Origin: Bolinopsis microptera
Taxonomy: Eukaryota; Ctenophora; Tentaculata; Lobata; Bolinopsidae
DNA length: 64,000 bases
Direction: 5' to 3'
Assembly (NCBI RefSeq): GCF_026151205.1
Contig: NC_087084.1
Location: forward strand, 12,365,453 to 12,429,452
The notes under the pieces were generated by a model. It had not been told where the DNA came from. It ran no database searches and was given only the letters and a program-made list of their open reading frames with translations. Numbering within the stretch: the first letter of the stretch is position 1; the number at the start of each line of letters is the position of its first letter. Made by a program: the position numbers and the translations under genes. Shown piece after piece: positions 21,501 through 62,700 of this stretch.

Positions 21501-22190
21501 CAGGTGACGCCTAGCAGCGATAGTAAAGTGAACACTACGGGTATCCAGGTGACGCCTAGCAGCGATAGTAAAGTGAACACTACGGGTATCCAGGTGACGC
21601 CTAGCAGCGATAGTAAAGTGAACACTACGGGTATCCAGGTGACGCCTAGCAGCGATAGTAAAGTGAACACTACGGGTATCCAGGTGACGCCTAGCAGCGA
21701 TAGTAAAGTGAACACTACGGGTATCCAGGTGACGCCTAGCAGCGATAGTAAAGTGAACACTACGGGTATCCAGGTGACGCCTAGCAGCGATAATAAAGTG
21801 AACACTACGGGTATCCAGGTGACGCCTAGCAGCGATAGTAAAGTGAACACTACGGGTATCCAGGTCACACCTAGCAGCGATAGTAAAGTGAACACTACGG
21901 GTATCCAGGTGACGCCTAGCAGCGATAGTAAAGTGAACACTACGGGTATCCAGGTGACGCCTAGCAGCGATAGTAAAGTGAACACTACGGGTATCCAGGT
22001 GACGCCTAGCAGCGATAGTAAAGTGAACACTACGGGTATCCAGGTGACGCCTAGCAGCGATAATAAAGTGAACACTACGGGTATCCAGGTGACGCCTAGC
22101 AGCGATAGTAAAGTGAACACTACGGGTATCCAGGTGACGCCTAGCAGCGATAGTAAAGTGAACACTACGGGTATAATCCAAGGCACGTGA
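15576..22190 (+). CDS. LDLa-ectodomain class A GPCR 1 with 67-copy repeat tail
   Basis: Exons 15576-15654, 15804-15988 and 16179-22190; all phases agree, giving about 2091 residues. Exon 1 is a signal peptide (MAELQYTVMFVVSLILSVTAG). The ectodomain has LDL-receptor class A modules recognisable by C-x-D-x-x-x-D-C-x-D-x-S-D-E cores (CDGVNDCSDGSDE, CNLVDDCGDGSDE, CDGKVNCEDWSDEC) among other Cys-rich segments. Seven membrane helices follow between about 17950 and 19060. They carry class A marks: LSR in place of DRY after TM3, CWIP in TM6 and NSVINPFLYS in TM7. The LDLa plus class A plan resembles relaxin-receptor and snail GRL101 relatives, though I see no clear leucine-rich block. From about residue 1087 the cytoplasmic tail is a tandem array (separate entry). 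Ligand unknown. Confidence 0.9.
19173..22175 (+). repeat. 45-base coding minisatellite, 67 copies
   Basis: Codes (SSDSKVNTTGIQVTP)n in the GPCR 1 tail: unit starts run from 19173 to 22143 in exact 45-base steps, 66 full units plus a shortened last one. The central units are identical at the DNA level. Variants cluster near the ends: gtgacacct and gtcacacct within the first six units, gtcacacct near 21865, and Asn for Ser (aataaa) near 21790 and 22060. A broken piece of the unit (agtatccaggtcacgcct) lies just after the stop. The unit is Ser/Thr-rich and offers many potential kinase sites. Confidence 0.97.
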
Positions 22191-29860: not shown

Positions 29861-31255
29861 GATTACATTATTATGGTACAAATTTTAACCTAGTTTAACC
29901 CATCAATCAATTTAACCCTATATCATATATACGTAATATAACGATACAGATGTATCAACTTAACATGACGTTCGTCACACAACAAAGGCCGTTAACAGTA
30001 TATAGTAATTGTATACATGTTCACGTAATAACAATACTGTTGAAATGATATGGTAGCGTAATGAGAAAGCACTTTTCAGGACGGTTACTCAATAGTACCA
30101 AGATTGTACCGTCATTGTATAGTATAGTTACGGTAACAGCTGTGTTTTTACTTGACAGATATTTGCTTAATTTAAGAACCAAATACAACTAAAGTGAATT
30201 GATAAAAATATGGCTTTCTTAAAAGAAATACGTGTCAACAGAATGTAGAAGCTGATAAATATATAGTGTACTCGGTCACGTATTATACTGACTGTTTGAT
30301 ATGAAATGTAATTTTTAGAGAGTACTTACAGGACGGTTACTTTACAGCCTCAAGAATAATACGTCATTGTATAATAACCATAGACCTAGTACAGAATAGT
30401 CACGGTAGCAGCTGTGCAATGTATTTGACTCAAATTGAATCTCTTTTCAGGACTGGTCTAGCTATTTTATATTTTCTACAATTATATCAGAAGATCTCAA
30501 CAAATTGAACAGTGTGCGAGGAATTTTTAAATATAATAACCAATGAAAGATAAAGCTAATTCTTACCTCAAAATAATGACCGTCCCTCAACATTACAGCT
30601 CAGTGTTTGTCTTTGTTAAATATCTTGATAAGGTATAATTGCGAGCAGGTGCGTGTTTTACTGGACAGTCTCTCTGCGCTCCTGAAACGTTGTTTACACT
30701 ATCATTCAGCGTTCAGTTGTGTGTTGTGTAAATTTTGACTCTGCTTCAGCTTTAATTGTTTTTATCTTTAACTTTATGCTTAAGTTTTTAATTCCTTTAC
30801 CGTAGTCGGTCACGTAACATTGACTGTTTGATATGAAATCTAAATTATAAATAGTACTTACAGGCCGATGCTGATGGTTACTCTACAGCAGCTCAAGAAT
30901 AATACGTCATTGTATAGCCGTAAACCTAGTACAGCATAGATACAGTAACATCTGTGCAATATATTTGACACAAATCTCTTTGCCAAGAACTGGTCTAGAT
31001 ATTTTCTACTTTCTAAAATTTTAATTATATCAGATCTCCATCAGGTAGTATGACGTGATGAATAAATATACAACTGCCAGTGCACCATGTTAATTACTGT
31101 TCCCAATTCTTTAATCATACCCGTAAATATTTGCTCGGTATCTGGCAGCAGTTCATCGATTGATGTTCCGTGTTCTGTTTCCTGGTATTTTGTGAGCGGA
31201 ATATTTTCTTGAGTAGGATAAGGTGAAATCCGTCACATTATCCTACACAATACTG

Positions 31256-31800
31256 AATCCTAAATGAATACTGAATACTGAATGAATACTGAATGAATAC
31301 TGAATGAATACTGAATACTGAATGAATACTGAATGAATACTGAATGAATACTGAATGAATACTGAATGAATACTTAATACTGAATACTGAATGAATACTG
31401 AATGAATACTGAATGAATACTGAATGAATACTGAATGAATACTGAATACTGAATGAATACTGAATGAATACTGAATACTGAATGAATACTGAATGAATAC
31501 TGAATGAATACTGAATACTGAATGAATACTGAATACTGAATGAATACTGAATACTGAATACTGAATGAATACTGAATGAATACTGAATGAATACTGAATA
31601 CTGAATGAATACTGAATGAATACTGAATGAATACTGAATGAATATTGAATGAATACTGGATAAATAATGGATAAATACTGAATGAATACTGAATGAATAC
31701 TGAATACTGAATGAATACTGAATGAATACTGAATGAATGCTGAATGAATGTTGAATAATGAATACTGAATAATACTGAATAATATACTGAATACTGAATG
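31256..31800. repeat. Minisatellite tgaatgaatac / tgaatac, left arm
   Basis: About 540 bases of irregularly mixed 11-base and 7-base units. The right-arm copy at 33276-33810 is its inverted counterpart, with slightly different unit order and length. Confidence 0.95.
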
Positions 31801-31950
31801 ATAATTATGATGTATTATTTTTAAAAGTTATAATGTAGACAAGGAAACGCATGTTTAGATTTTTGAAGATAACTTTAACTAAACTATATTCAATAACTCT
31901 ATATATCCAAATACTTATCTCAATAATTATCAACGTTTTGGTTATAAAGT

Positions 31951-32612
31951 TCAAGAATCTTCCTGACGATATATTTGTGAAAGTTTAAGAAGCTTGATGA
32001 TAATATTTTTGTTCTCGTTCATTAGTTTGTTGACATCAGATAGACTAGTAGTCGTGATAACTGCAGTCAACAGAGCTTGTTCTTCCATACTTAAAATTTT
32101 GGCGATGTCTTGTCCACAGTCAATGAGATGCTGCTCAAATTTCTCAAACATTTCCGTTTTCATTATGTAAGAGAATAAAAAGTCCATACATTTGTTTTCC
32201 TCCTTACACAATTTACTTTGTAACAGGACATCTAGAGATTTGAGTAATTTCGACATATCATTTACCTTTTTATTTATTAGCTTGATTGCTACGCCTTTCC
32301 GCTTGCCTTTGTGTTGCTGAACTGAGTCAGATTCTAACTCATCACTACTTGACACACTTCTACTATCACTATATTGTGTTTTTGACTCATCATCACCACT
32401 TGTTTCCTCAGAGTTAGAACCGTCTTGTTGAGATTCTTCAGATATTATCGTATCAGCATCTGAATATGTGGAAGCAGGATAATCCAGTTTTACATCAGTC
32501 GCATCCGAGTTAGCTTTTGATAGTGGATGAATGTTAGAGCTTGTTTCTGACTCTCCGGTCTCTCGATGATACCGACTTTTGTGAGAGGACAGGCTATATT
32601 TATTGACAAAAG
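31951..32612 (-). CDS. Element-borne ORF, longer copy (left arm plus spacer)
   Basis: The minus-strand frame is open from about 32612 through the spacer to a stop at 31951. It reads a Ser/Asp/Glu-rich part (SDADTIISEESQQDGSNSEE, then SDSRSVSSSDELESDSVQQ) followed by a lysine-rich helical part (KGKRKGVAIKLINKKVND, then KLLKSLDVLLQSKLCKEEN). It ends in IYRQEDS. No ATG is visible, so an upstream exon or decay must be assumed. No domain is recognised; the plan (acidic disordered region then helices) would suit a DNA- or capsid-associated accessory protein, but that is a guess. Confidence 0.45.
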
Positions 32613-33120
32613 ATTATCTCTGATAATATCTGAAGAATCTCAACAAGACGGTTCTAACTCTGAGGAAACAAGTGGTGATGATGAGTCAAAAACACAATAT
32701 AGTGATAGTAGAAGTGTGTCAAGTAGTGATGAGTTAGAATCTGACTCAGTTCAGCAACACAAAGGCAAGCGGAAAGGCGTAGCAATCAAGCTAATAAATA
32801 AAAAGGTAAATGATATGTCGAAATTACTCAAATCTCTAGATGTCCTGTTACAAAGTAAATTGTGTAAGGAGGAAAACAAATGTATGGACTTTTTATTCTC
32901 TTACATAATGAAAACGGAAATGTTTGAGAAATTTGAGCAGCATCTCATTGACTGTGGACAAGACATCGCCAAAATTTTAAGTATGGAAGAACAAGCTCTG
33001 TTGACTGCAGTTATCACGACTACTAGTCTATCTGATGTCAACAAACTAATGAACGAGAACAAAAATATTATCATCAAGCTTCTTAAACTTTCACAAATAT
33101 ATCGTCAGGAAGATTCTTGA
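32566..33120 (+). CDS. Element-borne ORF, mirror copy (right arm)
   Basis: Plus-strand counterpart of the left-arm frame. From the arm boundary (32622) to the stop at 33120 the protein is identical to the left copy. Its first residues (MIPTFVRGQAIFIDKRLSL) come from the spacer read on the other strand, so its N-terminus is an accident of the inverted duplication. It offers an ATG that the left copy lacks, so it could in principle be expressed. Confidence 0.4.
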   Translation: MIPTFVRGQAIFIDKRLSLIISEESQQDGSNSEETSGDDESKTQYSDSRSVSSSDELESDSVQQHKGKRKGVAIKLINKKVNDMSKLLKSLDVLLQSKLCKEENKCMDFLFSYIMKTEMFEKFEQHLIDCGQDIAKILSMEEQALLTAVITTTSLSDVNKLMNENKNIIIKLLKLSQIYRQEDS

Positions 33121-35521
33121 ACTTTATAACCAAAACGTTGATAATTGTTGAGATAAGTATTTGGATATATAGAGTTATTGAATATAGTTTAGTTAAAGTT
33201 ATCTTCAAAAATCTAAACATGCGTTTCCTTGTCTACATTATAACTTTTAAAAATAATACATCATAATTATCATTCAGTATTCAGTATATTATTCAGTATT
33301 ATTCAGTATTCATTATTCAACATTCATTCAGCATTCATTCAGTATTCATTCAGTATTCATTCAGTATTCAGTATTCATTCAGTATTCATTCAGTATTTAT
33401 CCATTATTTATCCAGTATTCATTCAATATTCATTCAGTATTCATTCAGTATTCATTCAGTATTCATTCAGTATTCAGTATTCATTCAGTATTCATTCAGT
33501 ATTCATTCAGTATTCAGTATTCAGTATTCATTCAGTATTCAGTATTCATTCAGTATTCAGTATTCATTCAGTATTCATTCAGTATTCAGTATTCATTCAG
33601 TATTCATTCAGTATTCAGTATTCATTCAGTATTCATTCAGTATTCATTCAGTATTCATTCAGTATTCAGTATTAAGTATTCATTCAGTATTCATTCAGTA
33701 TTCATTCAGTATTCATTCAGTATTCATTCAGTATTCATTCAGTATTCAGTATTCATTCAGTATTCATTCAGTATTCATTCAGTATTCAGTATTCATTTAG
33801 GATTCAGTATTGTGTAGGATAATGTGACGGATTTCACCTTATCCTACTCAAGAAAATATTCCGCTCACAAAATACCAGGAAACAGAACACGGAACATCAA
33901 TCGATGAACTGCTGCCAGATACCGAGCAAATATTTACGGGTATGATTAAAGAATTGGGAACAGTAATTAACATGGTGCACTGGCAGTTGTATATTTATTC
34001 ATCACGTCATACTACCTGATGGAGATCTGATATAATTAAAATTTTAGAAAGTAGAAAATATCTAGACCAGTTCTTGGCAAAGAGATTTGTGTCAAATATA
34101 TTGCACAGATGTTACTGTATCTATGCTGTACTAGGTTTACGGCTATACAATGACGTATTATTCTTGAGCTGCTGTAGAGTAACCATCAGCATCGGCCTGT
34201 AAGTACTATTTATAATTTAGATTTCATATCAAACAGTCAATGTTACGTGACCGACTACGGTAAAGGAATTAAAAACTTAAGCATAAAGTTAAAGATAAAA
34301 ACAATTAAAGCTGAAGCAGAGTCAAAATTTACACAACACACAACTGAACGCTGAATGATAGTGTAAACAACGTTTCAGGAGCGCAGAGAGACTGTCCAGT
34401 AAAACACGCACCTGCTCGCAATTATACCTTATCAAGATATTTAACAAAGACAAACACTGAGCTGTAATGTTGAGGGACGGTCATTATTTTGAGGTAAGAA
34501 TTAGCTTTATCTTTCATTGGTTATTATATTTAAAAATTCCTCGCACACTGTTCAATTTGTTGAGATCTTCTGATATAATTGTAGAAAATATAAAATAGCT
34601 AGACCAGTCCTGAAAAGAGATTCAATTTGAGTCAAATACATTGCACAGCTGCTACCGTGACTATTCTGTACTAGGTCTATGGTTATTATACAATGACGTA
34701 TTATTCTTGAGGCTGTAAAGTAACCGTCCTGTAAGTACTCTCTAAAAATTACATTTCATATCAAACAGTCAGTATAATACGTGACCGAGTACACTATATA
34801 TTTATCAGCTTCTACATTCTGTTGACACGTATTTCTTTTAAGAAAGCCATATTTTTATCAATTCACTTTAGTTGTATTTGGTTCTTAAATTAAGCAAATA
34901 TCTGTCAAGTAAAAACACAGCTGTTACCGTAACTATACTATACAATGACGGTACAATCTTGGTACTATTGAGTAACCGTCCTGAAAAGTGCTTTCTCATT
35001 ACGCTACCATATCATTTCAACAGTATTGTTATTACGTGAACATGTATACAATTACTATATACTGTTAACGGCCTTTGTTGTGTGACGAACGTCATGTTAA
35101 GTTGATACATCTGTATCGTTATATTACGTATATAGGGTTAAATTGATTGATGGGTTAAACTAGGTTAAAATTTGTACCATAATAATGTAATCACATTGGA
35201 GAACGACTCCGACTGGGATTCGAACTTGTGGCCCCGGCCGGTTAAAATGTGTCAGATTAGTCAACTGTGTTGACATTTTTGTCAAATAAAAAGAATGGCT
35301 ACGGCTGTGATTCAAACTTGTAACCTTCAGCTAAAATGTGGCAGATTAGTCAACTGTGTCAACATTTTCGTCAAATAAAAGAATGGCTCCGGCTGGGATT
35401 CGAACTTGAAACCTCCGACTAAAGTTGTGGTAGATTAGTCAACTGTGCTAAAATGACATTTTAGTAAAATGTGTCTCGGATAGAGCTCGAATGCAGGTCC
35501 AAACCATGACACTATACTACT
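32622..35521. repeat. Right arm of ~2.9 kb inverted repeat
   Basis: Mirror copy of 29532-32449 across a 172-base spacer (32450-32621). It carries the same open reading frame (on the plus strand), the same minisatellite (33.28-33.81 kb) and the same tRNA-like units (35.2-35.44 kb). Confidence 0.95.
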
Positions 35522-38227: not shown

Positions 38228-41200
38228 ATGTTGCTGCTAATAGTTATACTGATACGATCTTTACATACTCTACCCGAAAGTGAGTATGTACGCTAGTTGT
38301 TTAGTGGGTATTCTTTCCAACGATTTCAGAATATGTTGTGGATTGTTGACAAGATTATTCTTAACTGACACAAAACCGTTGCTTTTAGAGTTTAAAACTC
38401 TGTCTTGACAGATTTAATTAGTTACATCAACTTCAAGGCATATCAGATATGAAGGTTTACGTGTCTAAGTGGCTGAAATCTCAACCTAATTTACCAGCAA
38501 GCAATTAATTTCTCACAAAATAATTTAAACAGGTAACGCAAAGTTTTACCTGCTCAACGGTGAGGGTGCACAAGCAACGAATGGATTTGGTGTCTTGTTC
38601 GTCCAGAAGGGCCAACTCTCGGGCCATGTTTTATTTGAAGGAAACAAAGGATTCGATCAAGAGTGTCTGCCGAACCACATATGCCAAATGATGGGGTACC
38701 AGTTTACAATAAGTTGGTTCTTAGATATAAAAACCGTTCTTGACACCAAGCGGAAATCTATGCATGCGTTTACATTCGACGATATTTTCTGTCCAGTGGA
38801 TAACAACGGCACTGTTAATGCGACGTTTAAAATAAAAAAGATAAAAGAAACAAATGTTTTTTCAACTATACCATATTCAGCTGTAGTCCTCTTCTGCGGT
38901 CCTTTTAAAAGCACTTGTCCAATCGTGGAGCGATATAATTTCCTTAAGAGAGTTTGTATTGAGGAATTTGGCAGCTTAGTATTTCAATGTCACTACTCTG
39001 ACAAGCTTTACATGGCCATACCCGGGTACCACCACTCTATATTTAACACCGTCTGCGACAACGACCCTCATTTCTATCAAAGCTGTGGTATCAGAAATTC
39101 ACTGACCTCATCAAACTCTGCTGCAATTTGTGACGAGTACGTCTGTGAAGTGAAAAAAAATGACGTCCTCCCGACGATAGGTGTTATGTCTACCGTCACA
39201 GTTTCTTCAGCGATGTTGTGCCAATTGCAATTAGCTGACCCAGCATTTGAAAATCTGCCCTATTCACAAAGCTGCTCCAATTTACCAGACAACATTTGTT
39301 TAGCAGAAAATGAAGAGGAAGATAAAGTTCATACAACTTTAACTTTAAGAAGCGGACTAACAGCGGGGAAGTCCTCAGTTTGCAATGGACGCTGTGATGG
39401 ACGTCATTGTGAGGACGAGGCTCTCTGTGGTGGCTATCTGTACGGTTTGTACTGCATTGGCTGGCAACAAAGACTCAATTACATCAAACCAAGTGAAGTG
39501 TGCGATGGGTCCTCGACGTACCTGTGTCTAAATGGTGAGGACGAAAGGAACTGTTCTGAACACGACTCCTTACCAAGGCACGAAAAATGTAGAAGGTCCA
39601 CCCTTAATATATTCACAGGAAGACAAACTTCTTCGGTGATCCCAATTATGAATATTACAAGGTGTGGCGCTCCATTCAGCTCTGCAGTATTAGTTGACCC
39701 TGTATCAATCTGTGATAACTTTCTAGATCAAACCAACTGTACAGACCAGAGCCGTTCAACACTAACCTGTTATATCAACGGCTATCTTTCAACCATATCC
39801 AAATTTGTTGTGTGTCATGGTCAAGAGGAGATTCCAACATTATGTGACAACGGAATAGACCAGGTCTGTGTCAGGGTATCACTCACCTGTGAGGTACATA
39901 AACACCAACTGTGTGACGAAATTGAAGATTGTCTGAGCGGGGCTGATGAAAACATAGCAATCTGTCGCTCCATGACAAAGAGGGTTTGTCACAGAGCTTA
40001 CAAGCCCGACCAGGCATTACAAATTCCCATTGCATGGCTAAGGGATGGGGTTGAGGACTGTTTAGATGCAATCGACGAGGAGGACGTGTGGCAAACTTGT
40101 GGCATTGGTTCAACAAAACGATTCGTAGTGTCAATAGATGAAACGTGCGAGGAGGTGTTTCTTTGTAAACATGATCAAGCAGCCTTCGTAGAATTTAAAA
40201 ATATATGTGATGGGATTGATACGTCATGTGGTATTGAAACAAATATATGTGCGAAGTCGCATAAGACCAATCCTACGTTTGACATTGTACTGACTGTGCA
40301 GAAATCAGGTGGAGAATTGAAAACTTTGATGTATTGCTTGCCTGGTCTCGAGAGTCTGCAGCAAATAGCAAATCGTTGCGTTATCAATGAAGTCAATCTT
40401 TCGGGACTTGATGTCTTTGGAGTTCAATCCATTTTGACAATTATCCGCCCTAACACAATAATTAACTGCGATCATACCTTTGGAGAAATTTACGTGACAC
40501 TGAGTTGTGCAGGGTATTGTGAAGACTCGATCTGCCCTTTGCAAAAAAGGGTCCAATACAATTCTTGTCCTCAGCAACACCCAAAAAGGATATACACAGT
40601 TGCTGATAATAGATTCCTTTCGTTCGTGACAAAAATAGGTAATAAGTCGTACAGAAATGACTATTTTCGATGCGACAACGGTGTTTGCTTAAACTATGAA
40701 CAAGTTTGCAACGTGGTCGATGACTGTGGGGATGGTTCTGACGAAATACTCTGTACTAATGTGTTTTTGTGTGATTCCAAAGACCAACTGGTCCCGATCA
40801 CTGAAAAGTGTAATGGAAATATTGACTGCATGGATTTCTCAGACGAGTGTAACTTACACTGTGGCAAACAGATATTACAAAGCATTTTTCTAAAGATTTT
40901 GAGCTGGAATCTAGCTGTGCTAGCCATATTCCTTAACTTGATTTCACTCTATCGAACTCTAACCGATTTCAACAAAGAAATGTCAAAAGTGGCTATGAAC
41001 AATAAGATGCTGATACTTCTCATAAATCTCGGTGATCTGCTGATCGGAGTGTATTTGATCTATATAGCAATAATGGACACGGTAGTTTATAAGAGTGGAT
41101 ACTGCTCCGAGCATATAAATTGGCTGTCTAGCGCTCATTGTAACATAATAGGCGTCATCAGTACGATTGGTTATGAAATGTCTCTTGTTTCCATGACAAT

Positions 41201-42137
41201 TCTTGCCGTAACTAGGTTGGGGGTGATAAAAGATAAGACTCGGATCAGCGAACGATTTACAAGAAGAGTCCTTTTCAAAATTAGTCTAGGTGCACTAATT
41301 ATCGTCATGATGTGTATTACTATTGCAGTAATTCCTCTGGTGCCTCAATTTGAAGACTTCTTTGTCAATGGCATGACATACAGACCCTCAGTAAGACTCT
41401 TTATCGGAGCTCCCGATAAACAAATCCACCTCAGCATCCTACAGGAGTACTATGGCAAAATTAAGGGCAAAAATCTTAAATGGAGAGTGATAAATGATCT
41501 TGTTGATGGTATGTTTTCTAATGATTATGGAGGTGATGTACTTGGTCGAAAGAAGATTGACTTTTACGGGAATGAAGGAGTTTGTCTATTCAAGTTTTTT
41601 GTTAAAGCAGACGATCCTCAACGAATTTATGCTTGGGGCATCCTATCATTAAACATGGTTTGCTTTTTAGTAATTTCAGTCTGCTACATTTTCATCAATA
41701 ATAGAACCAGAACCACGTCAAAAGTGCTTACCAAGGGTAAAACACATACAGGTCATGAAGTAAGGAAAAGGAACAGAAGATTGCAGCGAAAAATATCGCT
41801 GATCATAGCAACGGATTTTCTTTGTTGGTTACCAGTTACCATAGCTTCCTGTCTCCACTCGGGAGCAGTCATCGACGCTACACCATACTACTCTCTTATA
41901 TCCATAGTATTTTTACCTATCAACTCTGTAATCAACCCTATCTTGTACAACGATTTCGTTACAACCTTATTAGAAAAAGTCAAAGAAAAATCGAAACCAG
42001 TTTTTGCTAAGAAGTGGAGAAATAAAAAAGTTTCTCCTGAACAATTTAACACTACCTGTATCAATAAAAATGATTGTTGCCATGATCAAGTTCAAATGAC
42101 TGTGATGAAAGTTTTAAAAGCAAAGGATCGAAAATGA
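38228..42137 (+). CDS. LDLa-ectodomain class A GPCR 2 (paralog of GPCR 1)
   Basis: Exon 1 (38228-38279) codes a signal peptide, MLLLIVILIRSLHTLPE. Exon 2 (38533-42137) joins in phase 1 as SNAKFYLLNGEG and runs to the stop, about 1218 residues in all. The ectodomain has Cys-rich and LDLa-type cores (CNVVDDCGDGSDE, CNGNIDCMDFSDEC, CDEIEDCLSGADE) in the same order as GPCR 1. Seven helices lie between about 40890 and 41960, with VTR after TM3, CWLP in TM6 and NSVINPILY in TM7. TM regions and the extracellular loop (FEDFFVNGM) align closely with GPCR 1. The tail is short (about 60 residues, ending LKAKDRK) with no repeat array. The two genes share orientation and intron position after the signal peptide, so they are tandem duplicates now 16 kb apart. 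Confidence 0.9.
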
Positions 42138-43754: not shown

Positions 43755-45839
43755 TCACTCATCAAATTGCAAGTCCTTAAAAACGATTTTGGTTGCTTCG
43801 GGTCGGTGACAGACCCTGCATCGGGACACGTAACTTCTTGCTTCTGTGAACGGTACCCTGGTTTCCTCCTCCGTGTATGGATCCTGAAGAGAGCAGGGTC
43901 AAAATAAAAGAAAAATTGAATCAACTTAACTTTAACGAAATGTGACCATTTTGATTTCATAAATGGGCTTGCAGATTAAACGTTTGAAAAGCTAACACTC
44001 GGCTCAAAACATATAAATATGTTATAGTCCATCTATACATCTTATATCTACCTTTTTCGAATCCATCTGCCATGACGTTTTCTGGTCGGAAGATTTAAAC
44101 TTGCAGCCCTCGACATCACACTCGGCTACAGCAGTGGGACTGTAGTACAATAGACACGAGGCTGGTTCGTCTGAAGTTGTTCAATAGTTACTTACGTATT
44201 GTATATATTATATGTAGTGGCCTTTTAATTTCATAGATTTTAAAATCATTTTGGACCAGAAAATATTTATTTTTAACAGCAGCACGTTAAAAGCTTTTCC
44301 TAAATAAAACAGCACAGATTTGATTAAAAGACTGAAAATCGGAGAAACGACAATCTGCACAATGTCATATTATAACTATATTATATTATAGACTGTTGTT
44401 ACTTTAAACTTTTTAAAAACTATTATCCTGAAAATGAGTCATATAATGTATAATAGCACAGCTCTCGGCAAGCTATAAACCCTCTCGGCTCTCATTGGCT
44501 GAATAATCATCCAATAAAGCGATAAGAAGGCGGCATGTTATAATCACTGACCTGTTAGCACTCCTATTGCATAGTTATCCAAGGACACTTCCCAGAAGCT
44601 GTAACCGATCCAGTCCTGTGATTGTGTTGCGGAGGGGATGAATCTGTTAGGAGAGGCTGCGGACACGTAGCTGAGAGAATATTTATCTTTAGAGAGAGAT
44701 TTATTTACCATTGATATTGCTAGATTGTGCCGTAACACAAAACACAATTGTTTTGTTAAATAATTGTTTTATTAATAAACAATAAAGAAAATCCGGATAA
44801 TATCACAGTGTCATCGCAAGGAGCTTAGGATTTCAAAACTTTAAGTTAACGTGCGTGCATACAGTTTTTTAAAGTAATTCTGTGGTACACTGTAAATGGT
44901 TATGAGCCGTTCGGCGGGCACGCGCTACTGCAAGCACGAGGGCTCTGGTTAGAGCAAGGTTATGAGCTTTCTCTCTTACCCATCAGGACAGTCAGGTACC
45001 GTGTTGGTCATACTGTGCACCACCACCATCTTAAAAATAGTGTCACACACCACACATCTAGATATCAGATTCAGCAGTTCTTCTCGTCTCGATCCCATCT
45101 TCAGCTTACCTGGCAAACAATAATGTTAAGTTGTTGAATCATGGTTATTAAAAAGGTTGTGTGTCTGTCATTCATGATACCAATTTACTCCCCATCTACA
45201 AACCAGAATTCAACCTCAACTTTGTACGGAAATAAGCAATTACATAATACAATATTATAGTTAATGTTATGATATTAATATTATAATATTAATATTACAA
45301 TATTAATATTACAATAAATAGTTAATATTATAATTATCTGTATATTTTGAATGAACCTCTGGGTAGTCGGCTGGAGCTGTCATCAGTTAGGAACTCCGGA
45401 GCAGTGGCCAGCCAGCTGAAATAAATTGTAAAATTAAGTTTTCAAAATAAAATAAAAACGTGTTTAAGGTTCAACAACATAACAATCTTAATTTCATTTA
45501 TTTATACGAATTTATTTAGCACTAGTTTGATGAATTTTTATTAGTTGTAGTTGTGGTACGATGGTGATCAGATATGACTTATCTTGTATACCTTTATAAC
45601 AGTAGCCAGTCAAAAGAAACAACAGTTACAAGGGCCGAGGCATTTGTAAATTTTTAATAATTTATTCTTTTAAAAAAAATTAATAAACGTTTAAAAAAAA
45701 GATGCTTACGTAGTCTTGTGACCCTCGTTGGCGGAAGAACAGCTGTCAATGGTGCACTGAGTATAAAAGCCAGGGTAAAACTCAGGTAGGCATGACCCAG
45801 GCTTTCCCAAGTCCTGACTCCATTTCGACTTTGAATCAG
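43755..45839 (-). CDS. Distal NC1 (C4-C4) exon cassette of collagen IV gene A
   Basis: Six minus-strand exons: 45710-45839, 45357-45415, 44980-45109, 44552-44670, 44052-44170, 43755-43883. All phases agree (1,2,1,2,1,0). The first starts inside a C4 repeat (DSKWSQDLGKPGSCLPEF, ...QCTIDSC...), then WLATAPEF, LISRCVVCDTIFKMVVVHS, the second C4 repeat (WIGYSFWEVS, ASCLLYYSPTAVAECDVEGC, VSRCRVCHRPEATK), and a TGA. The N-terminal quarter of C4 repeat 1 (the HSQ...GYSF part) is absent. The cassette's phase 1 entry matches the donor of gene A's first NC1 exon (47886-48023). I read it as an alternative 3' end of gene A. The alternative is a separate small gene with an undetected first exon: an ATG at 45981 starts a 12-codon piece with a donor, but nothing supports it further. 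Confidence 0.75.
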
Positions 45840-46510
45840 CTGAATTTCATTTAGAGTCAGTGATATATAATGAATTTTAACAAACAATAATAAATCGTTA
45901 GAGAAAATCGAAAACGTTACCAGATCGATAATTTAAGAAAACTTACATTGCGAACCAGGCATACCCCTTTCAGACAGTCCATTGTATTAGAAGCTTGTGG
46001 AATGTGAACTGTTTCTTTTAGAAGTAGATATTTCACAATTTACCCTACGTGACCGTGTTTATTTGTAAATTAAAGCAAAGATCCATTATTTGAAGAAATT
46101 GTTGCGCGATTAACATACTGAATTGACCCAGTATGCTATTTTAAGGTACACTGTATGTTACCTTTTTCCTAATGCAAAAGATGGAGACAAAACAGAGACA
46201 AATGTGCCAGTAAAAGCGGCAGCGTGGTTCGCTTGAAGCCCAGCCATCCGACCAGTAAGCGGCAACGTGTTGTCATGGAAACACGCGGGGTTGTCGTCAT
46301 GGAAACCCGCGGTAAAAGAATGAGGCCAACTTTCGGAAAAATATCAATCGATCAGCGAGTTTTGTTTCCCCTTCATACACCTCTTAATTCTCTGACGAAT
46401 CCAAGTTTGTAAACAAAATAGTCAAACAGTTGGCAATAAAATAAATCGGTTTGCAAAATATAAAAATGTTAGAATCTCGGTTAAAAGCCATAAAAAGTGT
46501 TCGTCAATCT
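45840..46510. other. Spacer between the two NC1 cassettes of gene A
   Basis: Follows the stop of the proximal cassette on the minus strand. It holds a small duplicated block near 46265-46315 (tgtcatggaaac twice, with gcggg) and no C4-like exon. Any poly(A) site for the proximal form would lie here. Confidence 0.5.
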
Positions 46511-49500
46511 TTATACGCGGTCGTTAGGAGAGAAGTAAACAATTTCTCGTTTTGTAGAGGTTCTCCTCATTACCACACATCTTCCCAGTTCGTTATCTCT
46601 GAATCTAGATCGAGCTACTCCGGACATCACGTCATTTATAATTTCACCATCGTCTAGGTCGTAGTTCCTCAGCTTTTCATAGTCGACGATCCAAAGTGAG
46701 GTTGGAGAGTTGGAAATCCATCTCACTTCTCGGCCATTTGTTTGCACAATAGAAACAGGCGAGAAGTATTCCAAACAGGAGCCGTGAGCCCCGAGTTCAG
46801 TTCCTGACCCTTCTCTCGCTCCACTTTGGTAAATGTAGCTGTATCCGGAGTATAATTCCGACCATCCGGCTGACACAAGTTTGTTCAGATTAGGCTTCTT
46901 GTTTCGGAAGCTGTGCACTGCCATGAGCTTGTAGTCACTTACACAAACAACACATCGGCTGAAAGAAAGTACAGTTCGTTACTAAGCGCTTACAAATCAT
47001 GGAGATCCAAGAAACTATCGTATTTATTTCTAATTCTCAAATAGATGATGGTTATCATGGAGGTCGGACGGGTGACAGTTTTCATCAAGTATCACTATCA
47101 GTTTAGTTGATTGGCTTCTATTATGAAACTACTGTCACCGCATCTTGTCCATCTCGTGTAAAATAACCACACTTTCAGAAAAGAACGCAATGAAAAATCA
47201 GTAAAATATTACTACAAATAAATAATCGCACTATATGATACCTGATATATTTCTTGATTTTTTCCGCATTATCCGCATTATAAGTCATGGAATCAGGATA
47301 CCAATCATCAACGGTCGCATCGTCAGGTATATCTGCAGTGGCCATCCAGAAGATATACTCGTTCTTAGACTCAATACAGGCAGCACTGTCACACAACTGT
47401 AGAGGGTTCATGTAGAACTCCCTCCAGCAAGACCCCGGCCGGGACAGACTTTGGGCTGACACTGATTTTGTAACTGGGAGAGGGTGGTGAGTTAGATCGT
47501 GGTGTGTATGGGGATAAGTTGACATGTTGGGACATAGCTTTAGTTGGAACGGGGAATCGTCAGATCATTGTCAGAATGGTGTGGGGCATCAACTCCAGGT
47601 GTTGTTGATAAAGGAGTAACTTGGTGTTTGAGCTTAGCAGGAAACGCTAACAAAACAATCGAGTAAACAAGCAAAGAAAGAATCAAAACTGCTGATCAAT
47701 CGAGAGGCAATCAAAATTTGATGGTCTCGCGCACAGAGGACTGTCTCCTTAAAAACACGCTGCCGCTTTTGGACGAACTTTTGGAATCGGAAAATGAGAA
47801 CGTTTCCTCTTATCAAGTTATCTAATTGATTAAATTAATACATTTTAATAGTATCATCATCAGGATTGGTTGGTTTTATACTTACCATCGACAAACATGA
47901 ACGAGTACCCCGTCCAAAGCTCAGTCATTCCATCGAAGCACTTTGGAGCGACGTTCTTTTGAGAGTGGAACGCCACGATGTAAGGATTCAGCTGGATGCT
48001 CTGGGCTGCTTCACCAGGTGCACCTTAGTTATAAAAGATATTGGATTAAGTTCTAAGTAGATATGCTCCCTTGAACACAAATTCGTCATCCATTTTATTC
48101 CAGTTATATAACTTAACTATGACAACGATAGAAACATTCATCAATATCTTAACCCTCAAAAATGCAAACCAGGATTCACGATTATCGGTTATTTCAATTT
48201 GAACGTCATTTTTACATACCAGCTCTGCCAGGTGCCCCCTTTTGTCCCCTTGCTCCTTTGACTCCAGCACCAGCGATACCCTTGGGCCCTGCGATACCTT
48301 TGATTCCAGGGATACCTTTGCCTCCTGTATCTCCTCTTTGCCCCATGACACCCTTTTCTCCTGTGGTTCCCTTGAACAAAATATATTGATTATTTTCTAG
48401 CAGTTACTTTTTTTGTGGTTTAAACGTTTTAAAACAATAAAATCTTAAATTTTAATAGAGAAAGACGTTTAAATACTTTAATAGAACTAAACTAACCTTT
48501 GTTCCAGGTGGTCCTGTGATTGTTTGACCATCACTGCCTCTGTCTCCTTGTCTACCTGGCATGCCTGAACTACCGGGATTACCATCCCTCCCTGGAGTTC
48601 CTGCTCTTCCTAAATCTCCCTTAGCTCCAGGTAAACCGTTTGTTCCTGGATTACCATTTGTTCCTGGAGGTCCAGGGTTTCCTCTTTGTCCAGTTGGTCC
48701 TGGTGGTCCAGCTGCACCGTTTGGACCAGCGGGACCTAAATCTCCAGGGGAACCAGGAGCTCCACTGAGACCCCTGTCTCCCTTCATTCCTTGCTGTCCA
48801 GCCCTGCCAGCCATTCCCTGAAGACCATTTTCCCCGGGTGGTCCAGCTATTCCTGGGTTACCGGATCTACCAGGGTCACCTTTTTGTCCTGCTGCTCCGG
48901 GCATACCAGGTCTGCCTAGTTCCCCGGGAGTTCCAACACCCGGTGTTCCAGGGACTCCAGAATCACCCTTAACTCCGAGAGCTCCAGCATTTCCGGGATT
49001 TCCTGGGTTTCCCTGCAAAACATTTAATTGGAATTGGCTAGTGGACTGAAATAAATATCCTGCGCCATACATAGAATGAGTTAAAACGTAGCAATTAAGT
49101 CTTGCACTGATACAGTGTCCTAGAACAGGTGTTAATGTGAAATATAGCTTACGTTTCTTCCAGGAGTTGCGTCTCGTCCCCTATCTCCCTTAGCTCCAGG
49201 TAGCCCGTCTCTTCCAGGAGTAGCTCTTCCAGGTGTACCCTTTCCTCCAGCCTTGCCAGGCGTTCCCCCATTTCCGGGTGACCCAGGAGGTCCTCGTGCT
49301 CCTGGGGAGCCCATCCTTCCTGCAGTTCCGGGATCACCGTTCTGTCCATTTAGTCCTGACTCACCTTTAGATCCTGGAGTTCCGGAGGTTCCAGGATTTC
49401 CTGGAATGCCTGCTTCTCCTTTTATACCAGCGGTTGAACCTCCCTAGAATAGAAAGAGAGTTGTGACAATGATTTTCAGAAATGATTTTGGAATGTGATA

Positions 49501-56979: not shown

Positions 56980-58718
56980 TTAAACTCTTTTCTTCGATTC
57001 AAAAGACCAGCTGCTTCCTTGAAGGACCAATTTCTTAGCTTCAGGTCTTCTGCAGACAGCACATCTCTTGAAGAATCTTTCGGAATCGTAAAATTCTATG
57101 TTGTTAATCTCTGATTCCTGAGAGATATTTTAAGTGTTAAAATCTGCACGCGACAATAAAATGTTAACGTTAAATCCAGACACCAATAAAATTGTACACG
57201 TGATCACTGTTAAATCTGTTTGCCAACCTCTCATTAATGAATTAAAATATTCAGCTGTTTTGTTACCTTATGACTTTATGAGTAGGCCAACAGTTACCAC
57301 ATAACCATCAGAGGTTCAAAAATTAAGAGGTCCCACATTAAGTTGAAACAGTTTCTCTAATCGTTCGTTCAACACAATTTAAACACTACTTTAAAACCAA
57401 TATCTCACCTCTCCCTCCTTCATCTGCCAGTAAGACTTAACAGTGCTGTCTTTAGAGATAGTGCACATTTCCCGCCCAGGAGCCATCTCTTTGCACTTAA
57501 CAATGGGCAACATTGAGAACTTGGTGAGACATGCCGCAGCAGACTCTGCAGGAGAAGGGGTTCATGTTAGGATAAAAATAGCTGCTTACTCAGCTATATG
57601 ATAATATGTAGCTTAGAAAGTCCTGATAATCTATGGCAGGACCGTCCTGACAGGAAGTCAATCATTGGGTGATAACTGGCACTTGCTATTGAGCAATAAA
57701 TTTGTCCAGAGGAGCTGCTAGACCAATATTATAATCTTAAAATCATAACAAGATAACACACCTGATGTAACGCCCAAACCGAAGTTTCCGTCAGATATCT
57801 GCCAGAAGCTGTACCCATACCAAGGTGTATCTGCATCTTGACAGTCTTGACCGTATGGAGCAGCTTTGCTGGGGACTCGTCTGTTTTCATCACCGGGGTG
57901 ACAAGCAACCTAAAATAATTGGTGAATTTATTTGATTGAGCAGTATTCAAGCCTGATGGGTGCTATAATCTAAAATACTTTGTCTTAAAGTTCAGTTGTA
58001 AAATTGAAATGCCTGTCGGATGCAATTCCAACGTCTCAAATCACGAAAGGCATACAGTCTACAGAAGTTAACAGCGAACATAATGCCAAACAAATTGAAC
58101 AGGATGATAAGACGCTAGAAACCTCATATTCCAAATACTCCTCTTTCCCCTCGGGAGTTACAACAATCTGATCCTCAGGACAGGAAGGCTGATCATCATC
58201 ACTGTGAACAATCACCAAACTGTAGATGCTCTCACACACTATACACCTGGAGATGTAGTTGTCTACCTCACTCATTTCCACCCAGGTGGAGAGGTTATCC
58301 ATGTAGTCCCTGTCTCCTGCCACGGCTAACCAGCTGGGGGTGTGGTTTAGTTTAACATTTCATTGGATTTATCTGGGGTACCGTTAAGATTAACATTTTA
58401 TTAGGGTCCCTGTTTGAATCACAAGTTTTACTTCAGATCATTGCTATTCAACACTTTTTTGGGAAATATTTCATTCATTTTCATTCAGAAATAGTGAAAC
58501 AACCAAATGCAGAACTGAATTTATCGGATTAAATCAACATAGCATTACACTCAAAACAACACTTCTTAATTTGTAAAACACTTACGCAGACTGATGTCTC
58601 TGAGAGTTCTTGCCGCAAGTAGTGGCGGTACACTCGGAGAAGAACGAGACTTTGAACTCTCTCATGCAACTACCAGGGTCTCCAAGGTTCTGCGCCCATT
58701 TTCCTGCTCCACTGCCAC
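56980..58718 (-). CDS. Distal NC1 (C4-C4) exon cassette of collagen IV gene B
   Basis: Five minus-strand exons: 58586-58718, 58123-58333, 57762-57909, 57409-57545, 56980-57117, phases 1,2,0,1,0. They read GSGAGKWAQNLGDPGSCMRE, SFFSECTATTC, WLAVAGDRDY, ISRCIVCESIYSLVIVHS, then a second C4 repeat (DTPWYGYSFWQISDG, AAACLTKFSMLPIVKC, FFKRCAVCRRPEAKK) and TAA. The order and motifs match gene A's distal cassette, though C4 repeat 1 is split by one fewer intron. The first part of C4 repeat 1 is missing here too. Entry phase 1 fits the donor of gene B's first NC1 exon (60930-61085), giving an in-frame [16 protein letters not shown]. Two extra cysteines (VAC, QDC) occur in the linker. Confidence 0.75.
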
Positions 58719-59735
58719 CTGATCGGAGAATTAGTTCAGTGAATTAACTTAAAATATTGTTGTCTCAATCAATAACTCGTTATGCAAGTTCGTTTATTTT
58801 AAATGGTATTAAAGTATAATAAAGTATAGGGTATAGAACTAACAGTCGACTCCCCGAATAAGCATTAAACCACGTACCTTTTGAAAGTTTGATAAATTTT
58901 AAGAAATCAGGTCCCTTATTGAGTTACTAAGGGTCGATTTGTTTTTACTCTTCTGAAATCTTGAGTTAGGACTATCGTATATTCAAATTTCAGAATAAGT
59001 ATTCAAGTCGACCGAAAAAGCGTATAGGTATGACATAAGCAGTATAAGCACCCAAAGGGCCACGACCAGGAGATCAGCTATAAGCCATCAGCTTCAGATT
59101 GAGTCAATTATTGACTAACTAATCCAATTATTGAGTATAAAGGTACGCCACGAGCAGGAAGTTGGTTGGCGGCAGCGTGGTTTGCATGACGGGGGCGACG
59201 CGTCCTATAACCTGAAGCGGCAGCGGGAGATTTCCGTGAGGTCGCACCACACTCAGTCACATGATCACTAGTCCAACTTGGTCCCTAGTTTACCTAAACA
59301 TACTTCTCTACTGAGTTAAATACTTTACTTAGTTAAATACTCCTACTTTACTTAGTAATTAGTTTAAGTTCTTAGTTTATATTCTATTTAGTTATTCTGT
59401 CTGTTCAGTTTTTTTGGAAAATACCTCTGTCCTAATGAAGTAATGATGAGCGCTGCCTATCATGCTCATTGTATGCTTAACTATTCAAATGTTTCTTTGT
59501 TCACTGTGATACCATTATTGAAAGTTAGATTTAAGAAGGGACCAAGTTAGACTGAGTCATGTGACCTGGTGGTGGAAGGGCAGAGCAAACGTTTTTGAAG
59601 AAGAACCGCTGGGTCAGAGATGCAGCTTCCAATAAAGAGAGAGAGGGAGCTTGAGAAAGTCAGACACAACACATTGAGAAAAATTTGCAATTTCAAAGGT
59701 ACATGTTCACATTATAACAAAATAATAAAAGTCCT
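58719..59735. other. Spacer between the two NC1 cassettes of gene B
   Basis: About 1 kb after the proximal stop. I searched both strands for an exon with the missing HSQ...GYSF part of a C4 repeat and found none, which supports sharing of the upstream exon. Confidence 0.5.
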
Positions 59736-62700
59736 TTATTCTTCATCGTAGTTGTCAGGTGTATCACTGTAGTAGTACATCCTCCTCTCTACAGACCTTC
59801 TCAGGACAACACACTTGCCCAGGTAGTTCTGGATAAAGTTGGCCCTGTCTGCGGCAGAGTCTACCTTGATGTTCTTATCCACTTGAGCACTGTTGTCAAT
59901 CAGCCACATGCTCTTAAAGTTAGAGCTAATGAACCTCACGTCTTTCTTGTAAGTTTGAGCAATCATTGTGGGAGTAAACTCTCTTCTGCAAGATTCATGG
60001 TCGAAGACAGCGTTTCCGAAGGCTCTTCCAGGGCCAACTTGCATGATGTAGCTGTAACCAGAGTAAACCTCTTCCCAGCCTTTTTGTGCGATTCTTGCCA
60101 TTTCGGGGGCGGTTGGTGGGCTGGCCGTGAAGGAATGGTATGAGACCAATTTGTAATCACTCACGCACACCACACATCGGCTGAAAACAGCAGTGTAAAG
60201 TAATTTGGTTAGTAGCAAGACGTTCTTATTACTAATTTTATTCACCATGATTAATGCTCTGCTTATGGACATAATTAAAGTATCAGTACTGTTACAAATT
60301 TTTGTTAAAACCTTATGTATTTATCACGTGCTTCTGCCACTCCAATATCGCCATCAGGGTAGAAAGCACTGCAAGACTGCTGTTTAGGCACACGGGTCGT
60401 CATCCAATAGGAATAATCCTGGTCACTGTTCAGACAGTTCTCTCTTTGGCACTTCATCACACTCATGGGGTAGAAATCTCTCCAGCAGGACCCCGGTTTG
60501 GAGAGATGCTGGCCAATAACCATCTTGTCAACTGAACAAAGATAAATTAGATGGAGCAGTTACTTTATAAGCGGCACACAGAAGATCAGCAAATGAAACC
60601 TTCTCAAGCACCCTCTCTCTCTATCAGATGAAGCGTTCTTTCTCTTGGAGACCTGGTGTCGAGGTTACTGAAGGAGCCCCACCCTCGTGAAACTCACGCT
60701 GCCGCTTGAAACAGGTTGAACTTGGCAGACTCAGCAGCCCCACTACCCAAGATCATGCATATCGTGCTGTCAATGACATGTCTCATCTCTCTTAATACGA
60801 GAGAGGTCAGATCTCTTGCAGAGGATGAGAAATGTTCAGGAAATATGAAAAGTAGCAGATCATATGAGGGTAACAAGTTGGGTAGCCTTATGCCAAGGAC
60901 AACGCTGGAAATCAGTAAATTTTACTTACCGTCCATGAACATGAACGAATACCCGGTCCAGAGCTCAGTCATACCGTCCAGACACTTTGGCGGGGTGGTG
61001 GTTTGAGAGTGGAATGCCATGATGTAGGGGTTCAGTTGGATGTTGCTTCCAGGGGGTCCAGGAAGACCAGTTTGCCCTCGGGGTCCTGGAATAACACATG
61101 ATGGTAGGTTAAAACTATCTCATTTTCATCTTTTAGCATGCTTAGGATTGAGGAATCCACTTGAAAAAAGACTTCGACAAAAATTACCTGGTGCACCAGA
61201 TGGACAGTCAGATGTATCGAAGGATTGTCCAGGAGGTCCCTTTATTCCCTTGATTCCGTCAATACCTGAGGGGCCTGGTGGTCCTCGGGGGCCACCAGAT
61301 CCATCAGCTCCGTCAAATCCCTGTTGTGTAGCAAAGTTACGGCTGGTATAAAGTTTAAAACATTCCGTGATGATTTGAAAGCAAAAAGATCCATGTCAGA
61401 GTAGACTCATCGACAAAATTATCATCAAAGATTACTTACAGGAGGTCCAGGGGGTCCTTGGCCAGAAGCACCATCTTCACCAGCAGCACCAGGGGATCCA
61501 GGGTTTCCTCTGGGACCCGAAGTTCCGTCTCTTCCGGCGTTACCATCATATCCACGGTCTCCTTTAACTCCTGGGCCTCCATCTTTACCGGGGCTACCGT
61601 TACCTCCAGGTGAGCCATTATTTCCTCGAGCTCCAGGTGATCCTGTAGTGAAACAAATTCAGTGAAGTTTTTGCTATCAAAATTCAAATGCTGAATTTTA
61701 AGCGAGTTTAATAAATTTTTATATTTGAAGCTCTGACTAGTTTCACAAAACAACTAAATTACCTGCAGTTCCCATAAGACCATCATTTCCAGGCAGGCCT
61801 GAACCTCCAGGGCTACCAGGATTACCAGAGTTACCCCTGTCTCCTTTTTGTCCATTTCTTCCAGGTGTTCCAGCACCTCCTTGTAGGCCAGGAGATCCTG
61901 CAGATCCGGGGCTTCCAGGGCTACCAGGTGTACCACTGTCTCCTTTCAGTCCCATGGCACCGGGAGAACCAGGTCGTCCATCATTGCCGTTTCTGCCATT
62001 GCCGTCTAAACCAGCTCTACCAGGTTCTCCTTTAGCTCCAGCTCCTCCTGGGGTTCCGGCAGATCCTGGGCTTCCCTGTGAGAAAAATGTTTTAAATTTT
62101 AAGTTTCTTTGAGGTTTGCTTTGCCGATAAGTATAAAAAATGTAGCTTAAGGACGACATTTACAATTAAAGATAAAGCAGACTTACAGGGTTTCCTGGAT
62201 TTCCATTGCGGCCAGCGAGTCCCTTCATTCCAGCAGCTCCATCTCTTCCAGGAATTGATCGCCCAGGGTCTCCCTTAGCTCCAGCCCCTCCAGGAGTCCC
62301 GGAAGATCCGGGGTTACCAGGACTTCCGCGAGCTCCTGGGTTGCCGCCCCTTCCGGGGCTTCCTTTGCCTCCGTCTCTGCCGGCGGTTCCAGGGTCGCCC
62401 CGTCCTCCAGGTGACCCGTTTAAACCATCTTTACCGTTAAGACCGGGTTCACCTTTAGCTCCACCTTGTGAACTTCCCTGAAAACAGATGTGTTATTTCA
62501 TATTTAAGGTAATGATTCAATTAGGAAACAATAAAGCTTACAAAACGTTATGAACAGATTAAAATGTATTAGTATTTAGAAAAGTCTTCAACTTACGGGG
62601 AGTCCTGCTCGTCCAGCGTCTCCCTTGAGTCCAGCACCACCATCTCTTCCATTCATTCCAGGTTCTCCCTTAGCACCTGAAGCACCAGGGGTACCTGGAG

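Follow-up and report, generated by a model that had tools for sequence, protein, structure and literature searches.

Introduction

Alternative terminal exons are a known phenomenon, as are long-range pairings of RNA, and a collagen IV gene that exchanges its NC1 domain by such means appears to be new. In the Drosophila Nmnat gene, a complementary pair of 14 nt with a spread of 400 controls exon 5 and a poly(A) site, and in human DST a pair of 15 nt with a spread of 10,000 flanks an exon cluster that is thought to be excluded as a loop (PMC6027157, available sections). Two complements to one site form a pattern that Ivanov and Pervouchine, in the accessible part of their paper, derive from the duplication of one arm of a stem-loop (PMC6071210). 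In collagen IV, the NC1 domain selects and registers the chains and joins the protomers into networks; ctenophores are reported to have between 4 and 20 collagen IV genes, and in Mnemiopsis the four Group I genes lie on one scaffold, with the middle genes facing in opposite directions (Fidler et al. 2017, PMC5395295, in the sections at hand). The present analysis concerns two collagen IV genes, here called A and B, in a stretch of 64,000 nucleotides from the ctenophore Bolinopsis microptera (contig NC_087084.1; C13:12365453-12429452, hereafter the window), and the sequence searched was one assembly of 264.65 Mb in 232 contigs.

Genes A and B very probably end in mutually exclusive terminal NC1 cassettes, with the choice aided by long-range RNA pairing, as judged from their exons and from complementary elements on either side of the proximal cassette. 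For gene B, a sequence-only reading of the window had proposed two alternative NC1 endings that share one exon. This proposal is strengthened by the same layout in gene A, by the conservation of the shared exon and by the rare flanking elements; it had under-reported the locus in that the distal set of gene A and the complementary elements were absent from it.

One shared exon and two NC1 cassettes

The two genes stand in tandem on the minus strand of the window, with the Gly-X-Y domain of gene B running from about window position 66730 (outside the window) to 61222 and that of gene A from 54789 to 48521, and the collagenous domain is followed by two tandem C4 repeats, the arrangement of collagen IV. 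Behind the shared exon of gene B (Table 1), a complete proximal NC1 with its stop at 59736 and a second set of C4 exons (58718-56980) with its own TAA stop, both described in the sequence-only reading, are found at just these positions. The distal exons D1 to D5 are entered in phases 1/2/0/1/0 and every intron is GT-AG. The distal set does begin in the middle of C4 repeat 1: taken alone, its best Pfam C4 stretch starts at profile position 38, and together with the shared exon the best stretch covers positions 2-109 of 110. No match to the missing first half of the repeat was found in spacer A or spacer B (the DNA between a proximal stop and the distal set) at an expectation value (E) of at most 1, which for spacer B agrees with the earlier statement that no exon for it lies there. 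The donor at 60930 and the acceptor at 58718 are both in phase 1, as had also been claimed, and both gene B cassettes carry the frame of the shared exon on to a stop, the joined product being in either case an open NC1 with two C4 stretches (141.6 bits with the proximal and 127.4 bits with the distal cassette; 81.6 bits for the distal set alone). The solved structures that match the shared-plus-distal product of gene B are collagen IV NC1 domains (13 distinct sequences).

Of the 18 pieces returned when the distal B protein was compared with the genome, some were the exons of distal B itself, others belonged to further collagen IV genes, and the rest came from window positions 45709-45831 (2.4e-5) and 44979-45083, which lie behind the proximal stop of gene A. 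With single exons as queries, the best match of D1 was the first distal exon of gene A (3e-10), and for the second distal B exon the gene A exon and those of other loci matched about equally. The distal set of gene A consists of six exons, is open, has only GT-AG introns and is entered in phases 1/2/1/2/1/0; as in gene B, the first half of C4 repeat 1 is missing and entry is in phase 1. The corresponding scores are 145.2 bits (shared plus proximal), 134.8 bits (shared plus distal) and 89.7 bits (distal alone), and all four products of a shared exon and a cassette have two C4 stretches each, above the Pfam cut-off. Because the whole arrangement is repeated in gene A, it is more than chance in gene B. 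No second NC1 set was seen behind 16 other NC1 loci of the genome, as judged by eye from the table of matches at E of at most 1, with queries from both genes and fetched flanks that vary in length. The possibility that the distal set of gene B is the 5′ part of gene A was ruled out by the stop at 56980 and by gene A's own signal-peptide-like start near 55140.

The splice sites themselves can be read directly, the shared donors being ACG/gtaagt in gene B and ATG/gtaagt in gene A. Scores were taken from a matrix built on 20 introns of these genes, with each site left out in turn. The distal acceptors scored 6.6 (B) and 2.9 (A) and the proximal ones 4.6 and 4.8, within a range of 0.2-14.0 over the 20 acceptors, and the distal acceptors rank first among the 54 AG sites of spacer B (58718) and first among the 20 of spacer A. 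Neither cassette type is free of weak donors: the internal donor of the proximal cassette of gene B scored 1.5, and that of distal exon 2 of gene A 1.7. Agreement of phase lends little support by itself, and was rejected as proof, because among the models of the 16 other collagen IV loci that of L033 (g_11388k, C13:11388 kb; 5945-5775), and no other, also has a phase-1 intron where the shared donor stands in the NC1; behind L033, the match table at E of at most 1 showed no second cassette. The models of the other loci came from a purpose-written spliced aligner, and their C-terminal halves are untrustworthy at several loci.

With the shared exon included, the distal isoforms of both genes have all twelve canonical NC1 cysteines, gene B having two more in an insert. 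In crystal structures of NC1, the disulfides join the first cysteine to the sixth, the second to the fifth and the third to the fourth. Since the first cysteine of repeat 1 is present only in the shared exon, the sixth cysteine of that repeat, which the distal sets keep in both genes, depends on this exon. The proximal NC1s (46958-46511 and 60180-59736) show a different pattern, read by eye from the alignment: six cysteines in C4 repeat 1 when the shared exon is included, and in repeat 2, where the distal NC1s retain six, no more than two, the second and the fifth. By the same topology, the four cysteines lost correspond to two whole disulfide pairs.

Complementary elements in introns and spacers

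The introns from the shared exon to the proximal cassette (412 nt in A, 398 nt in B) have one same-strand word of at least 9 bases in common, AAGCGGCAGCGTG, and the longest common words of the spacers (671 nt in A, 1017 nt in B), AACCACGCTGCCGC and CGCTGCCGCTT, are complements of this intron word. The elements are here called I in the introns (AAGCGGCAGCGTG in gene B, AAAAGCGGCAGCGTG in gene A) and S1 and S2 in the spacers. With at most one mismatch, the 11-base core GCGGCAGCGTG has six sites in the window, all of them in these introns and spacers (mean in shuffled sequence, 0.07): one per intron on the transcript strand and two per spacer as the complement. The intron copies and one copy per spacer have the exact core, and the second spacer copy has a single mismatch. 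The poly(A)-type hexamers on the proximal stops (59740 and 46515) lie upstream of these spacer elements. Genome-wide, the core has 20 sites in the 264.65 Mb, against 4 for a control read backward, and four of the 20 are the two introns (sense) and the two spacers (complement). A dispersed repeat was rejected as the origin of the elements, given these 20 sites for the 11-mer and four perfect sites for the 13-mer, three of which are here.

The best intron-spacer complementarity of gene A, 15.5 for I-S2, was reached by 1 of 500 shuffles, and eight other segment pairs of genes A and B gave values of 8.0-10.5. Gene B has a second pair, J and J′, nested within I-S1, whose score of 20 is the best in that gene and was reached by none of 500 shuffles; the J/J′ word GAGAGAGGGNGCTTGAGAA has exactly two perfect sites in the genome, J and J′, and one further site with a mismatch. 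A weaker nested match in gene A (47703-47680 with 46368-46344) scored 13.5, a value reached by 10 of 500 shuffles. The longest uninterrupted complements measure 15 bases in gene A, 12 in the J pair of gene B and 11 in its I pairs. When the RNA from the shared donor to the distal acceptor was folded, I paired with S1 in each gene, with 11.6 of 13 expected pairs in one and 12.9 of 15 in the other.

Spacer B also has an inverted repeat of its own, at window 59565-59537 and 59286-59256 (AGGGACCAAGTT / AACTTGGTCCCT and TCATGTGAC / GTCACATGA), which is possibly an inserted element or a hairpin; no comparable inverted-repeat word of at least 9 bases was found in spacer A.

Table 1. Exons and complementary elements of genes B and A in window coordinates
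Gene	Feature	Position	Strand	Remarks
B	Collagenous exons within the window	63885-63601, 63459-63004, 62884-62597, 62477-62187, 62075-61763, 61642-61440, 61320-61188	-	gene extends past window
B	Shared exon: end of collagenous domain and first half of C4 repeat 1, with first NC1 cysteine	60930..61085	-	phase-1 donor
B	Intron element I	60695..60707	-	AAGCGGCAGCGTG
B	Intron element J	60598..60622	-	specific to gene B; includes a GA run
B	Proximal cassette exon 1	60312..60531	-	
B	Proximal cassette exon 2	59736..60180	-	TAA stop; AATAAA overlaps stop, hexamer starts 59740
B	Spacer element J′	59636..59660	-	complement of J, nested within I-S1
B	Spacer element S1	59215..59227	-	complement of I with a single mismatch in the 11-base core; uninterrupted over 11 bases
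B	Spacer element S2	59169..59182	-	complement of I; perfect 11-mer
B	Distal exon D1	58586..58718	-	phase-1 acceptor
B	Distal exon D2	58123..58333	-	
B	Distal exon D3	57762..57909	-	
B	Distal exon D4	57409..57545	-	
B	Distal exon D5	56980..57117	-	TAA stop
A	Shared exon	47886..48023	-	phase-1 donor
A	Intron element I	47756..47770	-	AAAAGCGGCAGCGTG
A	Proximal cassette exon 1	47242..47473	-	
A	Proximal cassette exon 2	46511..46958	-	TAA stop; TATAAA overlaps stop, hexamer starts 46515
A	Spacer element S1	46257..46269	-	complement of I; one G-U pair
A	Spacer element S2	46212..46229	-	15-base perfect complement of I
A	Distal exon 1	45710..45839	-	phase-1 acceptor
A	Distal exon 2	45357..45415	-	weak donor GTTCAT
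A	Distal exon 3	44980..45109	-	
A	Distal exon 4	44552..44670	-	
A	Distal exon 5	44052..44170	-	
A	Distal exon 6	43755..43883	-	TGA stop

Age and conservation of the cassettes

A tree was built on the part that begins with the second half of C4 repeat 1 and extends to the beginning of repeat 2, with 16 rows, 15 of them different, in which 12 of the 16 other loci were included. The proximal cassettes of A and B group together (98/95), as do their distal cassettes (90/88), and the deeper forks are weak. Because the cassettes group by type, the double-cassette layout is probably an old one that predates the A/B duplication. The aligned residues of A and B are identical at 92 of 214 positions in the proximal cassettes and at 85 of 216 in the distal ones; 44 of the 85 identical distal residues are encoded by different codons, and synonymous change is at or near saturation, which makes the ratio of nonsynonymous to synonymous substitution uninformative for the cassettes. 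The distal frames are open across the 216 aligned codons in both genes, for which the chance without selection is about 1e-9 (counting stop codons alone and assuming equal codon use).

Within the shared exon, the C4 part has 30 of 38 residues (79%) identical in A and B, versus 88 of 212 in the remainder of the proximal and 72 of 209 in the remainder of the distal product (cassettes 34-42%), with Fisher values of 3e-5 (proximal) and 4e-7 (distal) for residues that are not truly independent. Among 64 pairs from 12 rows, the four A-B comparisons had the largest shared-exon excess (0.37-0.51, the next being 0.25), although the four values rest on one and the same shared-exon comparison; this control covered 8 of the 16 other loci, one of which, g_1772k, has a doubtful middle. 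Recent gene conversion of the shared exon was rejected, as 13 of its 32 identical residues use different codons (synonymous divergence about 1.9). Such conservation is what would be expected for an exon that must fit two partners. The distal set as a recent local copy of the proximal cassette was likewise rejected, the internal introns being different (one, in phase 2, in the proximal cassette; four in distal B and five in distal A).

Proposed choice between the two endings

In the proposed mechanism, the last shared exon would be spliced either to the proximal terminal cassette, two exons with their own stop and a poly(A)-type hexamer, or to the distal one, five exons in B and six in A, again with their own stop; the choice would be mutually exclusive because each cassette ends its reading frame. 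Once the polymerase has moved past the spacer, I could pair with S1 or S2 in the pre-mRNA, and in gene B J with J′. Such pairing in the cell would enclose the proximal cassette, together with its poly(A) signal, in a loop of about 1.5 kb. The shared donor and the distal acceptor, about 2.2 kb apart in B and 2.0 kb in A, would then be separated by about 0.5-0.7 kb, which would favour the distal ending. Were cleavage or splicing to occur first at the proximal cassette, the spacer elements would be lost and the proximal ending made. A single triple-helical chain would thus come with two different NC1 modules for assembly and, if the two NC1s have different partners, as we infer, with two assembly specificities. 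The balance tips slightly in favour of the wider proposal that a long-range RNA switch picks the NC1 module so that one chain can enter two networks, and that both genes, as products of an ancient duplication, inherited this switch.

Several points weigh against this scheme. The evidence is the genomic DNA of one genome. In gene B, the scores of the I pairs, 13.5 and 12.5, do not exceed what shuffling can give (maximum 14.0; 12.5 reached by 26 of 500 shuffles), and the weight of these pairs comes from their recurrence in both genes and their rarity genome-wide. When the core was kept and the flanks were shuffled, the observed energy was reached by 2 of 200 shuffles for A I-S1, 27 for A I-S2, 14 for B I-S1 and 23 for B I-S2, and only A I-S1 stands out. 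The energies of the non-cognate combination of B intron and A spacer (-51.3, -48.1) are on a level with the cognate ones (-46.1 to -52.7), therefore no clean compensatory change is shown; those of A intron and B spacer are weaker (-37.7, -32.9). The folding uses S1 only (I-S2, 0.0) and mostly restates the complementarity. As S1 and S2 both follow the proximal cassette, there is not one selector per exon, and the model leaves unspecified the factor that favours the proximal ending. As to the cassettes, the distal grouping of 90/88 falls under the tree's star threshold and the distal cassette of gene A was flagged as a long branch, identity over the whole shared exon is 32 of 45 (71%), the distal acceptor of gene A is low (2.9) and its exon 2 donor weak (1.7), and the whole distal B query scored other collagen IV pieces (best 2.5e-8) ahead of the first distal exon of gene A (2.4e-5).

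Alternative explanations

Both endings might be made by alternative splicing while the elements are no splicing switch at all, being instead a protein-binding word or a structure that acts in polyadenylation, editing or DNA. This explanation, which has its first half in common with the preferred one, is unlikely, though worth keeping in mind. It would account for pairing outside the core that is only modestly above the flank-shuffled controls, and for I pairs in gene B that are unexceptional alone, but it sits badly with the sense word in the intron and its complement in the spacer in both genes, with two complements in each, and with the unrelated nested pair of gene B.

The distal sets might instead form the 3′ ends of separate genes, possibly NC1-only, that have a promoter and signal-peptide exon of their own, but this is very unlikely. 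Signal-peptide NC1-only genes have been reported in ctenophores (Fidler et al. 2017, PMC5395295, available part). Spacer A does offer four short candidates for an ATG exon with a donor in phase 1, two of which overlap, are partly hydrophobic and end in a hydrophobic run; all four donors are unlike the consensus, and spacer B has no ATG exon of at least 12 amino acids with a phase-1 donor. A stand-alone NC1 gene would have a signal-peptide exon and a complete first C4 repeat with no collagenous domain, which is not the form of the distal sets. Each of these begins halfway into C4 repeat 1 and retains a cysteine whose partner, by the topology given above, belongs to the missing half, a half that is matched in neither spacer, and separate genes would leave the complementary elements unexplained.

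Even less likely is an internal promoter that would give a short protein of shared exon and distal NC1 with no collagenous domain; NC1-only proteins are reported in ctenophores (PMC5395295, available part), but such a protein would still require the junction from the shared exon to the distal set, and is hence a variant of the alternative cassettes. Least likely of all is that the distal sets are unused relics, kept by chance, of a tandem neighbour with a deleted 5′ part: the different internal intron positions do make another paralogue a more likely source of the distal set than a local copy, and the layout may well have originated from such a neighbouring paralogue, but open frames, canonical cysteines and usable splice sites persist in two copies after synonymous saturation, where decay would be expected.

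Neighbouring genes and other features

Beyond the window there are three plus-strand Gly-X-Y blocks that end in two NC1 loci, also on the plus strand, near 12.452 and 12.475 Mb, and gene B and the next plus-strand collagen IV gene appear to be head-to-head. The plus-strand collagen IV genes that adjoin A and B, L029 (C13:12449400-12459399) and L030 (12469400-12479399), recur on this contig at a distance of about 8 Mb as the copies L039 (C13:4653000-4662999) and L038 (4511000-4520999), with DNA blocks that are 91-94% and 96-98% identical, and the NC1 of L029 looks damaged or misassembled relative to its L039 copy.

Elsewhere in the window, an open frame of 2049 codons on the plus strand (16041-22190) shows, by eye, repeated cysteine motifs, a seven-transmembrane-like stretch and a run of 15-residue repeats; this tail is a long, near-perfect repeat (SDSKVNTTGIQVTPS) and is open in two frames on the opposite strand too. 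A frame of 1202 codons (38529-42137, plus strand) has a similar layout, cysteine-rich and then with membrane-like segments, has no repeat tail, and is perhaps a paralogue of the first. Window 31238-33817 is an inverted duplication around about 32.5 kb, with the same protein-like frames and low-complexity repeats on both strands.

Comparison with known systems

Alternative exons of a collagen IV gene are known from let-2 of C. elegans, where they affect the triple-helical part and are not known to affect the NC1. Genes A and B resemble let-2 in the choice of an alternative exon within collagen IV and differ from it in that the choice concerns the NC1. A literature search returned no title or opening of an abstract that describes alternative NC1 cassettes, the subscription literature being mostly outside its scope. 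The available parts of PMC5395295 make no mention of an alternative NC1 in ctenophore Group I genes, and the letters "splic" occur neither in its main text nor in that of PMC12141075.

In gene order, the locus agrees with ctenophore Group I: A and B on the minus strand are followed by plus-strand blocks that end in two NC1 loci, which gives four genes with an apparent head-to-head pair, a likeness to ML17501a-ML17504a that concerns gene order. An NC2 domain and a cysteine loop are marks of Group II that are absent in Group I. By eye, A and B have no cysteine cluster directly before the NC1 (HSQ), unlike the gene at C13:11.417 Mb, and there is one cysteine in the gene B exon 61320-61188.

If the proposed choice of ending is right, the repertoire of collagen IV chains would be set by splicing besides gene number, and this would matter for counts and phylogenies of ctenophore collagen IV, in which a distal NC1 could be overlooked or counted as a gene of its own. 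In that event there would also be a collagen case of long-range RNA pairing in an early-branching phylum, the available part of PMC6027157 tabulating Drosophila and human, and the locus would offer a compact test piece of about 2 kb.

Among systems with docking and selector sites of the Dscam type (PMC6071210, accessible part), the likeness lies in one element that is complementary to several, in alternative cassettes that are homologous and in the use of one cassette per transcript, which for A and B would follow from the proposed splicing. The difference is that the complements in A and B stand together in the spacer, with no separate selector for each alternative exon, and that their cassettes are multi-exon and terminal. 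Compared with Nmnat and DST, genes A and B are collagen genes known from sequence alone, and a whole terminal domain cassette would be swapped for a divergent homologue in two paralogues; what they have in common with those genes is complements of at least about 12 nt (15 in A, 12 in the J pair of B) on both sides of an alternative segment, the loop in A and B being about 1.5 kb.

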